Source: Gemmatimonadota bacterium
GTDB taxonomy: Bacteria; Gemmatimonadota; Gemmatimonadetes; Palauibacterales; Palauibacteraceae
Length of the DNA: 64,000 bases
NCBI GenBank assembly: GCA_023554245.1
Contig: JAMJQL010000107.1
Coordinates: 1 to 64,000 of the forward strand
Reading direction: 5' to 3'
Made by a program: the position numbers and the translations under genes
In this document: positions 51,256 through 57,036 of the stretch, piece after piece
Layout of the letters: each line of letters starts with the position of its first letter
How positions within the stretch are numbered: the stretch's first letter is position 1
The notes under the pieces: generated by a model
What the model saw: the letters and a program-made list of their open reading frames with translations, nothing else
Told to the model about the DNA's origin: nothing
Databases searched by the model: none

Positions 51256-53859
51256 ATGTCCAGCCGAAAGATGATCAGACAGCCCCTGAAGCTTTCGCTT
51301 CGGGCGCGTATTCCGGCACTTCTCGCCCTCTGCACCGCAGCGGTGGCAGCACTCTCGCCATCTGCTGCTCTGGCGCAGACTGGACCGCCTTCGCCCGCAG
51401 AGCACCTGGGGTACGAGCTCGGTCAGAGATTCGCGAGCACGAACGCCATCGAGTCCTACGGCCATGCGCTAGCCGCCGGTTCACCTGTGGTGCACCTGGA
51501 ACAGTACGGCGTCACGCCGGAGGGTCGGTCGCTGTTCGTGCTGGTCATCGGGCATGGCCTTGATGCGGGGGACTTCGAGTCGGATCTCGCCCGGCTCCAG
51601 CTGCTCACGGATCCGAAGCTGAGCCCGAATCGGGCGAGGGAAATCGCCCGTGAAACGCGGGCCGTAGTGTGGCTCACCTACGGGATCCACGGAGACGAGA
51701 GTTCCTCCTCTCAGGCCGCCCTGTGGACGGCCTGGGATCTCGCCACGGGCCGGGCGGGCCTGGATGGCGTGCTCGACTCCCTGATCGTCGTCATCGATCC
51801 GGTCGCGAATCCGGACGGCCGTGATCGATACGTGAACTGGTACCGATCTGTCAGGGGCGAAGTGCCGAATCCCGAAGTCTCCTCGGCGGAGCACCGGCAG
51901 CCGTGGCCCGGTGGACGCTACAACCACTACCTGTTCGACCTGAACAGGGACTGGACATGGGCTTCCCAGCCCGAGACGCAGGCCAGGCTCGCCGAGTTCG
52001 ACAGGTGGCACCCGGCCGTCCACGTAGACTTCCACGAGATGGGACACGAGAGCAGCTACTTCTTCTTTCCAGCCGCCGCTCCGATCAGCCCCCTGTATCC
52101 CGAATCGACGGCCCGGTGGGCCGAGCGATTCGGCCGGGCCAACGCTGCGGAGTTCGACCGGCGCCGCTGGCTCTACTTCACCGCCGAGCAATTCGATCTC
52201 TTCTACCCGGGATATGGGGACAGCTGGCCCAGCCTGGTCGGCGCGATCGGGATGACGTACGAGCAGGCGGGTGGTGGACGAGCGGGGCTCGTGGTTCGGC
52301 GACACGATGGTGAGCTGCTGAAGCTCGCCGATCGGATTGAGAGACACCGGGTCGCAGGAATCAGCACGCTGCGCACGGCGGCTGCGGGCAAGACCGACCT
52401 TCTGCACGACTTCGCGCGATTCCACTCGGCCCGGGATGAGGCTGCGCCGGACTTCATCGTTGTTCCCGATCAGGGCGGAGTCGTCGCATCCCAATTCTCA
52501 CGGTCCCTGGTCCGACAGGGAATCGAGGTCGAGCGCGCCACCGGTTCCTTCGAGGCGAGCGCAGAGCCCCACCGCGGCTTCGTCGGGCGATCAGATTTCC
52601 CGGAAGGTACCCTCCTGGTCAGGGCCGACCAGAGGCGCGGACGCCTCGCTCGAACTCTGCTGCAGGCCGATGTGCCGCACCCGACGGATGGACCCGGTCG
52701 CACCTACGATATCACCGCCTGGTCGCTGCCCTACGCTTTCGGACTCGAGACGCACTCCGCATCCCGTGGAGTCGACGGCACCGAGATGGCGCCGGTCGAT
52801 ACGCTGGCATTCGATCGGGCTCCGAACGCGTCAGGAGCAGCGCTTCCTCTCGGCTGGCTCGTCGCTCCGAGCTGGCAGAGCTCCGGCCCCCTCGTGGCCT
52901 GGCTGCGCGCTGGCGGCCGGGCACGGGCACTCGAGGGAGAATTCGAGCTCGGTGGTCGAAAGTGGCCCGCTGGAACTCGCCTGCTTCAGGCCGACGCGGA
53001 GGCGGCGGAACGGCTGTCCAGCGCGGGTCTGGCGCCGTTCGCCGTTCCGGTGACGACAGGCTGGGCCGAGGAAGGACGCGACCTCGGGACATCCCGGTCG
53101 CTTGGTCTGCGGGCGCCCCGAATCGGCGTGTTCCGCGGCTCGGGGACCTGGGCGACCAGCTTCGGCTCCGCCTGGTACTTTCTCGAGCGAATGGCGGGCG
53201 TACCCTTCGATGCGCTGGAGCTTGAAGAGATCTCGGGTCTCCGACTCTCGGAGTGGGACGTGCTCGTCCTTCCCGACGGGCGGCCCGGTCGATTTCTGGA
53301 CGAGCAGGCCACGGGCGCGTTGCGGTCCTGGCTGGAGAGTGGTGGAACTCTGGTGACCTTTGCCGGTGCGGCGCATTGGGCGAGCCGATCGCTCGCCGAA
53401 ATCGAGCTGCGCGAGGCCGAAGCTGACTCGCTGAGCGAGGAGGACCGCCGTGCCGCCGCGCTTCGCACGAGAGAAGAACGACGCGAGGACCGCTGGGATC
53501 GATCCGTGAATGGAGTGATCCTCCCGGTGCGGATGGACTCCGCGCATCCCCTGGCGTGGGGGGCGGGCCTCGGGAATTCCGATCGCCGCATGTTCGTCCT
53601 GCACCTGTCCGACATCCTGTTCGAGCCCTCCGGATCGTTCGAGACGGTGGTGGCGCTCGAGTCCGGGGTAAGAAACGTGTCGGGCGTGGTCAGCGAGTCC
53701 AAGCTGGAAGAGCTGGGCGGTACGGCCTGGCTCGCTTCGGTCCGCGTGGGACGCGGGCAGATCGTGCTGTTCGCAGACGATCCGCTCTTCCGCCTGATGT
53801 GGCCGTCGCAATTCGTTCTGTTCATGAACGCACTGCTGCTGGGTCCGAACATGGGCTGA
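51256..53859 (+). CDS. Secreted M14 family zinc carboxypeptidase-like protein
   Basis: An 867-residue exported protein. A signal peptide (about residues 1-41) ends at ALAQ. The M14 domain (about 45-370) shows the zinc pair in GIHGDESSSS, the substrate region DPVANPDGRDRYVNWYR and FDLNRDWTWASQPE, the third ligand in HVDFHEMGHES, and the likely catalytic Glu in MTYEQAGGG. Residues about 620-860 look like a glutamine-amidotransferase-like domain (VLVLPDGRPGRFLDEQ, SWLESGGTLVTFAG), an architecture known in large M14 peptidases of the FCB group. The true substrate is unknown. Confidence 0.85.
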   Translation: MSSRKMIRQPLKLSLRARIPALLALCTAAVAALSPSAALAQTGPPSPAEHLGYELGQRFASTNAIESYGHALAAGSPVVHLEQYGVTPEGRSLFVLVIGHGLDAGDFESDLARLQLLTDPKLSPNRAREIARETRAVVWLTYGIHGDESSSSQAALWTAWDLATGRAGLDGVLDSLIVVIDPVANPDGRDRYVNWYRSVRGEVPNPEVSSAEHRQPWPGGRYNHYLFDLNRDWTWASQPETQARLAEFDRWHPAVHVDFHEMGHESSYFFFPAAAPISPLYPESTARWAERFGRANAAEFDRRRWLYFTAEQFDLFYPGYGDSWPSLVGAIGMTYEQAGGGRAGLVVRRHDGELLKLADRIERHRVAGISTLRTAAAGKTDLLHDFARFHSARDEAAPDFIVVPDQGGVVASQFSRSLVRQGIEVERATGSFEASAEPHRGFVGRSDFPEGTLLVRADQRRGRLARTLLQADVPHPTDGPGRTYDITAWSLPYAFGLETHSASRGVDGTEMAPVDTLAFDRAPNASGAALPLGWLVAPSWQSSGPLVAWLRAGGRARALEGEFELGGRKWPAGTRLLQADAEAAERLSSAGLAPFAVPVTTGWAEEGRDLGTSRSLGLRAPRIGVFRGSGTWATSFGSAWYFLERMAGVPFDALELEEISGLRLSEWDVLVLPDGRPGRFLDEQATGALRSWLESGGTLVTFAGAAHWASRSLAEIELREAEADSLSEEDRRAAALRTREERREDRWDRSVNGVILPVRMDSAHPLAWGAGLGNSDRRMFVLHLSDILFEPSGSFETVVALESGVRNVSGVVSESKLEELGGTAWLASVRVGRGQIVLFADDPLFRLMWPSQFVLFMNALLLGPNMG

Positions 53860-53894
53860 GAGGCAGGCCTGGATGAACCCCCACGGCGGGAATC

Positions 53895-53909
53895 CTGCCG
53901 AAACGGCAG
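53895..53909. other. 6-bp inverted repeat upstream of the hsp20 promoter
   Basis: CTGCCG-AAA-CGGCAG, starting 35 bases after the M14 gene stop and ending nine bases before the -24 element. It may be the end of the M14 transcript or a protein-binding site. Confidence 0.35.
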
Positions 53910-53917
53910 ATGTCGGA

Positions 53918-53932
53918 GGGCACGTGTCTTGC
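53918..53932 (+). promoter_or_regulatory. Sigma-54-type (-24/-12) promoter for hsp20-clpB
   Basis: GGGCACG (53918-53924) and TTGC (53929-53932) fit the sigma-54 consensus TGGCACG-N4-TTGC with one mismatch (G for the first T). The GG and GC doublets are exactly 10 bases apart. Transcription would start near 53944, about 28 bases before the hsp20 ATG. Confidence 0.6.
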
Positions 53933-53971
53933 CCCTCTGAGAAGCTCACCCCGAACCGGAGATGACAGAGA

Positions 53972-54415
53972 ATGAACGACGAGAAAACTGCCGAGACAGG
54001 AACCCCGGACGCCCGGGGTCCACTTGGCGAGATACAGGGGTTCGTCGAGGAGATGTTCGAGAACATCCGCACCTTCGGACCCAACGTTCCAGGGCGACAC
54101 CCGAAGATGGAAATGGCCGAATCCTCCGACGCCTACTACATCCAGCTCGACCTCCCCGGAGTCACGAAAGAGGCACTGGATGTGAATACGGTCGGAGATG
54201 AGCTCCGGCTCAGCGGACGTCGGTCGCGACCCGGGTATCCGGACGGAGCCGTAGTCCAGCGGACAGAGCGAACGTACGGCCGATTCCAGCGCACGTTCAG
54301 GATCCCTGGCGATGCGGACCCCGAGGGGATCCGTGCAAAGCTCGAAGACGGGATTCTGGAGATCCGTCTTCCCCGGCGGGGCGACGGCGAAGGTCGCAAG
54401 GTATCGATCGATTGA
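53972..54415 (+). CDS. hsp20: Small heat-shock protein, Hsp20/alpha-crystallin family
   Basis: ATP-independent chaperone that holds unfolding proteins. The 147-residue protein has an alpha-crystallin domain (about residues 43-145): MAESSDAYYIQLDLPGVTKE, the beta core with SGRR, ERTYGRFQRTFRIP and a C-terminal EDGILEIRLPRR. The IxI-type C-terminal motif is weak. The first 40 residues are acidic. It is 26 bases upstream of clpB, so disaggregation and holding are produced together. A -24/-12 promoter candidate is 40 bases upstream. Confidence 0.95.
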   Translation: MNDEKTAETGTPDARGPLGEIQGFVEEMFENIRTFGPNVPGRHPKMEMAESSDAYYIQLDLPGVTKEALDVNTVGDELRLSGRRSRPGYPDGAVVQRTERTYGRFQRTFRIPGDADPEGIRAKLEDGILEIRLPRRGDGEGRKVSID

Positions 54416-54441
54416 CGGCATACGAGGAGAAGTGAGAGCAC

Positions 54442-57036
54442 ATGCTACCAGCTGACAGATTGACGGTACGCGCGGCTGAATCGCTGCAGGCTGCAGCCGA
54501 GCTCGCGCGGCGACAGGGGAATCCGGCGGTTGAAGATCTCCATTTGCTGGCTGCTCTGCTCGACCAGGAAGAGGGAATCATCGATCCCATTCTTCGCAAG
54601 GCGGGTGCTGACCCGGCGGTCGTCGCCGGTGGCGTCCGGTCGGGACTGGATCGGCTGCCCACTCAGTCGGGAGCGGCGCCTGCCGCCAGTCGGGAGCTCG
54701 TGCGGGTACTCGACGAGGCGGACGAGGAGGCGCGTTCGCTCGGTGACCAGTACGTGTCCACCGAGCACCTGCTCGTAGCCCTGGCCGGCAAGGCTGCGAG
54801 CAGCACTCGGGAGGTTCTGGCCTCAGCCGGCGCGGATCAGGCGGCGCTGCGAGAGGCACTGGCGGCCGTGCGCGGGCCGCATCAGGTGACCGATCCCGAG
54901 GCCGAAGGGAAATACCGGGCCCTGGAGCGATTCGGAGTCGACCTGACGGAGAGGGCCCGCGACGGAGAACTGGACCCGGTGATCGGGCGCGACCCGGAGA
55001 TTCGTCGGGTGATGCAGGTCCTGTCGCGGCGGACGAAGAACAACCCGGTTCTGATCGGGGAGCCCGGAGTCGGCAAGACGGCGATCGTCGAGGGGCTCGC
55101 CCAGCGCATCGTGGAAGGCGACGTTCCCGAAAGTCTCAAGGACAAGAAGCTCATCCAGCTGGACATCGCTGCCATGCTGGCGGGAGCCAAGTTCAGGGGC
55201 GAGTTCGAGGAGCGGCTGAAGGCGGCACTCAAGGAGATTACGGAGGCGAAGGGCAAGTACATCGTATTCCTGGACGAGCTTCACACGATCGTCGGCGCGG
55301 GTGCGGCGGAGGGGGCCGTGGATGCGGGCAACATGCTCAAGCCTCCGCTGGCACGCGGTGAGCTTCGAATGGTCGGCGCGACGACGCTGGACGAGTACCG
55401 AAAGCACATCGAGAAGGACCCGGCGCTGGAACGGAGATTCCAGCCGGTCTTCGTGGGTGAGCCTGCCGTCGACGAGACGATCGCCATCCTCAGAGGTCTC
55501 AAGCAGAAGTACGAGGTACACCACGGAGTCCGCATCACGGATCCCGCCATCGTTGCGGCGGCGAGGCTTTCCGATCGCTACATCGGTGACCGGTTCCTGC
55601 CCGACAAGGCGATCGACCTCGTGGATGAAGCCGCATCGCGGCTCCGCATCGAGATCGATTCGATGCCCGAGGAAATCGACCTGCTCGAACGGCGGCAGAC
55701 GCAGCTCGAGGTCGAACGCGAGGCACTCAGGGAGGAAAGCGATCCCAAGAGCGCCGAGAGGCTCGAGGTTCTCGAGGCCGAACTCGCGGGGATCCGTGAG
55801 CAACTCGCCGGTATGAAGGCCCGCTGGACGTTGGAGAAGGAATCGATCGAGCGGGTGAGAGAACAGAAGCGGAGGATCGAAGAGCTCGGAACTCAGGCCG
55901 AACAGGCGACCCGTAGCGGCGACCTTCAGCGTGCGGCCGAAATCTCCTACGGGGAGATTCCGCGGGCCCAGGCGGAGCTGGAGGCGGCCGAGGCCGAGCT
56001 CACCAGGATGCAGGCGGAGGGCGGCAGCTTTCTCACCGAGGAGGTCGGGCCGGAGGACATAGCCGAAGTCGTGGCGAATTGGACGGGTATCCCGGTGTCC
56101 CGGATGCTGGATGATGAGAGAGAGCGCCTGACCCGACTGGAGGAGCACCTTCACGAACGGGTCGTCAGCCAGGATGAGGCAGTCGAGGCCGTCTCGAACG
56201 CGGTTCGGCGGAGTAGAGCGGGGCTCCAGGACCCGAACCGGCCGGTCGGGAGCTTCATCTTCCTGGGGCCGACGGGCGTCGGCAAGACCGAGACGGCGCG
56301 GGCACTCGCGGAATTCCTCTTCGATGACGAGGATGCCCTCGTCCGACTGGACATGTCCGAGTACGGCGAGCGCCATGCGGTGGCCCGGCTCATCGGGGCG
56401 CCACCGGGCTACGTGGGATACGAGGAGGGCGGACAGCTAACAGAGGCCGTGCGCAGACGTCCGTACAGCGTCGTGCTGTTCGACGAGATCGAGAAAGCGC
56501 ACCCGGATGTGTTCAACGTGCTTCTTCAGATCCTGGACGACGGGCGCCTGACGGACGGGCAGGGTCGGACCGTCGATTTTCGAAATACCGTCATCATCCT
56601 GACGAGCAATATCGGCAGTTCCTACATCCTCGAACACAGTGGAGATGACTGGGAACTGGTGGAGGTCAAGGTTCGCGAGGCCCTGCAGCAGGGCTTCAAG
56701 CCTGAATTCCTCAATCGGATCGATGAAATCGTTGTATTTAAGCCGCTTGAGCGTGATCACCTCGAGCAGATCGTAAAGCTACAACTCGACCGGCTGGCTG
56801 GATACCTCTCCGAACGGGAGATCAGTCTGGAGGTGACACCCGAAGCACGCGCCCGGATCGCGGAGGTGGGGTACGATCCCGCATTCGGTGCGCGACCGAT
56901 GAAACGGGCGATTCAACACCTGGTGTCCGATCCGCTCGCCATGGCCTTTCTGGATGGCAGGTACTCGGACGGAGACACGATTCGAGTGGACGTCGGAGCC
57001 GATGGCGAACTGTCGTTCGAGCGGGTCGAGGCTTGA
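54442..57036 (+). CDS. clpB: ATP-dependent chaperone ClpB
   Basis: Hexameric AAA+ disaggregase that works with DnaK. The 864-residue product has the Clp N domain (about 1-150), AAA-1 with Walker A GEPGVGKT (Lys212), a coiled-coil middle domain (about 400-530), and AAA-2 with Walker A GPTGVGKT (Lys615), plus [20 protein letters not shown] in two segments. The middle domain distinguishes it from ClpC. Spacing to hsp20 is 26 bases, so they are likely one operon. A GC-rich hairpin lies downstream. Confidence 0.97.

Follow-up and report, generated by a model that had tools for sequence, protein, structure and literature searches.

A predicted sigma-54 promoter with a putative activator dyad upstream of hsp20-clpB in a Gemmatimonadota bacterium and its recurrence at chaperone genes across the class

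In the window, the 64-kb stretch of Gemmatimonadota DNA that was analysed, a gene for a small heat-shock protein, hsp20, is followed after only 26 bases by clpB, and the two genes probably form one operon (Table 1). The upstream neighbour, an M14 zinc carboxypeptidase-like gene whose product shows a weak DUF4350-like match towards the C-terminus, is not regarded as belonging to the system described below; to judge from a similar end sequence, it also precedes hsp20 in two other genomes (G001 and G012). A search of the genome contigs for Hsp20-related loci returned only four distant loci.

Table 1. Genes and predicted regulatory elements at the hsp20-clpB locus (positions in the window)
Feature	Position	Strand	Basis or remark
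M14 zinc carboxypeptidase-like gene, upstream neighbour	51256..53859	+	ends 35 bases before the dyad
Dyad CTGCCGAAACGGCAG, putative upstream activating site (UAS) of a sigma-54 activator	53895..53909	.	rarity, conservation, class-wide recurrence in helical register
Sigma-54 -24/-12 element GGGCACG-N4-TTGC (N4 = TGTC)	53918..53932	+	sequence, counts, conservation
Predicted transcription start	53943..53945	+	about 11-13 bases past the -12 GC; from known sigma-54 promoter geometry
Likely Shine-Dalgarno sequence GGAG	53958..53961	+	10 bases before the ATG, within the predicted transcript; sequence
hsp20, small heat-shock protein, 147 aa	53972..54415	+	PF00011, E 5.7e-18
clpB, 864 aa	54442..57036	+	Clp_N, AAA_2, ClpB_D2-small

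A sigma-54-type element, GGGCACG-N4-TTGC with GG and GC 10 bases apart, had been proposed in front of hsp20 by a first-pass annotation, and direct reading of 53918-53932 confirmed it: the GG lies at 53919-53920 and the GC at 53931-53932, 10 of the 11 specified bases of TGGCACG-N4-TTGC are present and the sole departure is a G for T at the first position. The distance to the hsp20 ATG, estimated at about 40 bases, measures 39 from the end of the box. Exact GGCACG-N4-TTGC occurs once in the window, while the motif with up to one mismatch is seen five times against 5.4 expected from shuffles and, over the whole genome, a reversed control pattern is commoner than the sigma-54 motif. As the motif shows no excess over shuffles and is outnumbered genome-wide by its reversed control, it says little by itself; what lifts the box beyond chance is the position of the exact copies, the conservation and a dyad in fixed helical register. 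The exact core motif has 11 copies in the genome, most of which, by inspection, lie closely upstream of a plausible start, with a few of uncertain target, and those near starts look like real sigma-54 promoters. These copies include one before a second hsp20 and one before pilA (L096:3918-4024, G000:C104), directly after a pilR-like gene for an enhancer-binding protein (EBP); the pilA promoter, which is without the dyad found at chaperone genes, can be a useful positive control. Comparison of the -24/-12 region in relatives, as the first-pass annotation had suggested, finds it conserved, since a box of at least 9/11 (9-10/11) is present in 12 of 12 scorable hsp20-clpB promoters of family f1, the own genome (G000) included; resampled sequence reaches a 9/11 box in 2.5% of trials per promoter, a figure not to be multiplied across relatives because orthologues are non-independent trials. 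An inverted repeat, GGGCA-N7-TGCCC at 53918-53936, in and just past the box, is common to most f1-family hsp20 boxes and was considered as an operator; as the dnaK and clpB boxes elsewhere do not carry it, it is not the general feature.

The dyad CTGCCGAAACGGCAG, which had gone unnoticed in the first-pass annotation, is separated from the -24 GG by 9 bases. Its pattern, CTGCC-N5-GGCAG, has six exact copies in the 2.93 Mb genome against 23 for a reversed control. In G001 and G008 the dyad is kept at the same place as in the own genome, and the other f1-family hsp20-clpB promoters carry an 8-10/10 dyad further upstream; over the 12 f1 promoters, dyads of at least 9/10 sit 8-9, 69, 80-81 or 92 bases from the -24 GG, with 80-81 bases found at the hsp20 promoters of genus g5. 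The textbook position of EBP sites is 80-150 bp upstream, a typical feature and not a strict requirement; the dyad of this locus lies closer, about 40 bp upstream of the predicted start, as do the dyads of about half of the composite sites in the class (see below) relative to their expected start. The reading of the dyad as a terminator hairpin was rejected as the main one, because there is no T run and because helical phase is kept in many contexts. Upstream of hsp20 in family f4 (L064, L065), a clear sigma-54 box of TGGTAYG/TGGTACA type is present and the arms CTGCCGTT and AACGGCAG lie about 30-40 bases apart, not 5.

The combination of dyad and box, searched as CTGCC-N5-GGCAG, 3-63 bases and GGYAYG-N4-TTGC in 394 genomes of the class, was matched in 57 genomes, while the reversed control gave only four matches. 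Among the 66 distinct site pairs, 64 precede chaperone genes (dnaK 41, clpB 9, grpE 8, hsp20 6), with the genes identified by short protein motifs in the reading frames that follow; as the search pattern holds nothing about coding sequence, this chaperone content is unbiased. The other two composites (L145, G240:C108; L156, G306:C41) lie upstream of genes for a 991-aa and a 172-aa protein and are either chance matches or extra regulon members. Genomes without the exact composite have weaker dyads, and no dyad of 8/10 or better is found at dnaK in G107 and G052. Other exact sigma-54 boxes of the own genome have a dyad of at least 9/10 within 110 bp in one case only, before a GGDEF gene, with a background for such a dyad of 1.4% per 110 bp.

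Spacing in steps of the DNA helix, 10.5 bp, is a signature of an activator site. Across the class the gaps between dyad and box fall at 8-10, 18-19, 29-33, 39-41, 48-53 and 59-63 bases; of the periods tested, 10.5 bp fits best (R 0.81), and 83% of the sites are in phase against 30% under uniform spacing, with the in-phase offset taken from the data and the spacings non-independent because orthologues share gaps. Equally in phase are promoters that were not used for the pattern, namely the second hsp20 of the own genome (dyads at 19, 51 and 70), its dnaK, with a weaker layout (8/10 dyad at 60), and G024 dnaK (70), G089 (50), G077 (60) and G120 (60 and 30).

The regulators on which a sigma-54 assignment depends, as the first-pass annotation had pointed out, are both encoded in the genome: rpoN is present (PF04552, E 1.8e-65, contig C179), together with 10 full EBPs, while three further weak matches of the EBP search are other AAA+ proteins, one being ClpB. 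With the NCBI RpoH model, no RpoH-type sigma factor reached the curated cut-off in the own genome (best score 159.5 bits versus 323.1; sub-threshold matches at about 155-160 bits), and no sigma-70-type promoter was found within 53700-54500. Together with rpoN, the EBPs and the conserved -24/-12 region, these results support the earlier suggestion that hsp20-clpB may answer to an EBP signal rather than to a heat-shock sigma factor or to HrcA/CIRCE. The accompanying statement that no CIRCE is seen holds for the 64-kb window; as HrcA is present in the genome and groES carries the CIRCE TTAGCACTC-N9-GAGTGCCAA (L103:8585-8640, G000:C63), CIRCE control exists, but at groESL, where the scan showed no sigma-54 box. 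Control of the chaperones thus seems to be split between HrcA, with its CIRCE at groES, and sigma-54, with boxes at dnaK and hsp20. A kinase/EBP pair is located about 1.3 kb beyond groEL on C63.

A candidate for the activator is an EBP encoded between hslUV and a tig-htrA-dnaK group (G000:C104:27561-29183), with an AAA+ sigma-54 interaction domain, a GAFTGA loop and a Fis-type HTH. Orthologues were detected in 115 of the 123 genomes examined, nearly always as a single copy, and in about 20 genomes the gene lies 8-15 kb from dnaK. Of 60 genomes picked largely because they carry the exact composite, 55 have the orthologue, and so do 60 of 63 genomes that lack this composite. As the EBP is nearly universal, its presence does not tell the two groups apart; correlating presence and absence with the composite being uninformative, the analysis turned to genomes that have a single EBP. 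No EBP other than the candidate orthologue was found in G024 and G052, and dnaK still has a sigma-54 box, CGGCATGCGGATTGC in G024, with the 9/10 dyad CTGCCGATCTGGCAC at gap 70, and TGGCATGGACATTGC in G052; as these drafts are 93% and 95% complete, respectively, a further EBP could be absent from the assemblies. In a profile comparison the N-terminal domain of the candidate resembles the receiver domains of other EBPs (E 1e-13), and a Pfam search found no receiver domain in it at E 0.1. At the position of the phosphorylated Asp, all 52 aligned orthologues have Thr (49) or Ser (3), within a conserved LTG motif. Phosphorylation at the usual site is excluded by this replacement, and the receiver with a phosphorylatable Asp that marks the NtrC type is absent. 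No kinase gene was seen beside the candidate gene. Its product (L105:5562-7187, G000:C104) also has a long variable linker between AAA+ and HTH, with one conserved stretch (consensus p.lEF.fRtLv.lk.d..dLRr.fe) as a possible binding site for a partner.

Based on these features, 53918-53932 is probably a working sigma-54 promoter, with the dyad as the site of a dedicated EBP that also activates other chaperone genes. The suggestion of an EBP signal at hsp20-clpB was right but too narrow: judged from the sequence comparisons, the operon is one member of a predicted chaperone regulon, together with dnaK, grpE and the second hsp20. The best reading appears to be a heat-shock regulon of the whole class that depends on sigma-54 and an EBP and is activated independently of phosphorylation. 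In such a regulon, sigma-54 RNA polymerase would wait at the hsp20-clpB promoter, the candidate EBP would bind CTGCC-N5-GGCAG on the appropriate helical face and form its ATPase ring, and the promoter would open; the same EBP might activate dnaK and the second hsp20, as well as grpE or clpB in relatives. Because the receiver-like domain is without the phosphorylated Asp, the EBP most likely needs no histidine kinase to become active and could, for example, be set free by a chaperone as unfolded protein accumulates. Heat or unfolded protein would then be the signal, and control would operate by protein contact, with chaperones holding the EBP back. In its full extent, with the DnaK/GrpE/ClpB/Hsp20 branch governed by sigma-54 together with a pseudo-receiver EBP that needs no phosphorylation, senses misfolding and is probably restrained by the chaperones it induces, the scheme can be considered evenly balanced between right and wrong.

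Different assignments of the same elements can be weighed against this reading. The dyad might be the site of a different EBP, for example of the two-component EBP on C63, which is attractive by its location near groESL, and the genome indeed offers 10 possible EBPs. On the other hand, groESL itself has CIRCE, the candidate pseudo-receiver EBP recurs near dnaK, and the two genomes in which it is the only EBP found have retained the dnaK box, in G024 together with the dyad, so that another EBP as the driver of hsp20-clpB is unlikely. Alternatively, the dyad might be the operator of a separate repressor, with heat lifting the repression of a sigma-54 promoter. A repressor bound there could block the sigma-54 holoenzyme where the dyad lies directly beside the -24 element, which is the case for about half of the composites; at the remaining sites, however, it lies 18-92 bp upstream with helical phase kept, which blocking would not need, and an EBP is required at sigma-54 promoters regardless. 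An operator function is thus considered quite improbable.

Finally, transcription of hsp20-clpB might start at a promoter of the sigma-70 family or continue into the operon from the peptidase gene upstream, with the sigma-54 match as an accident. The lack of enrichment of the motif as such in the genome would be compatible with an accidental match, and read-through would be compatible with a same-strand peptidase gene that ends 35 bases before the dyad and with the result that no terminator was found between this gene and hsp20. Set against this are the failure to find a sigma-70-type promoter in the region scanned and the preservation of box and dyad across the family despite differing surroundings, as well as at other chaperone genes elsewhere, which leave an accident a very slim chance.

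Known bacterial heat-shock regulators are mainly sigma-70-family factors such as RpoH and repressors such as HrcA, CtsR and HspR. The ibpB gene of Escherichia coli, equally coding for a small heat-shock protein, has a sigma-54 promoter, but in addition to sigma-32, whereas no RpoH-type factor reaches the cut-off here. PspF of the Psp response is an EBP without a phosphorylation switch that is controlled by protein contact and serves a stress response; it has no receiver-like domain, answers membrane stress and has other targets, whereas the candidate described here has a receiver-like domain and predicted chaperone targets. HrcA/CIRCE control is believed to use chaperone feedback, but works by a repressor with another site, which is found here at groESL and not in the window.

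An NtrC-like protein that activates a heat-shock gene is HsfA of Myxococcus xanthus, which is phosphorylated by the kinase HsfB and activates lonD (Ueki and Inouye 2002, cited in PMC9109919). The targets of HsfA are lonD and secondary-metabolite genes, in contrast to dnaK, grpE, clpB and hsp20 here, and HsfA depends on a kinase for its phosphorylation, whereas the present candidate has a receiver-like domain without Asp and no kinase was seen beside its gene. Closest in content is the prediction in 2025 of sigma-54 promoters for groEL, ibpA, groES, grpE, dnaJ and dnaK in Planctomycetota and Bacteroidota (PMC12316311), by which dnaK, dnaJ, grpE, groESL and ibpA-type genes are likewise placed under sigma-54 across whole phyla. 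That work is a promoter prediction with neither a binding site nor an EBP, and its text does not contain 'Gemmatimonad-'; in the present genome groESL is under CIRCE, and a site, its phasing and a candidate activator can be given. No relevant paper on sigma-54 heat-shock control in Gemmatimonas or Gemmatimonadetes was found among the open-licence literature. Relative to the 2025 prediction, the site, the EBP and the lineage appear to be new.

Now that a site and one candidate activator can be named, the predicted link between sigma-54 and chaperones becomes testable gene by gene. If true, an ATP-driven, enhancer-type heat-shock switch would replace a heat-shock sigma factor or repressor in these bacteria, and the mechanistic question would arise of how an EBP can act when its dimer site lies directly against the -24 element. 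In genomes with one EBP, sigma-54 may be left with heat shock as a main function.
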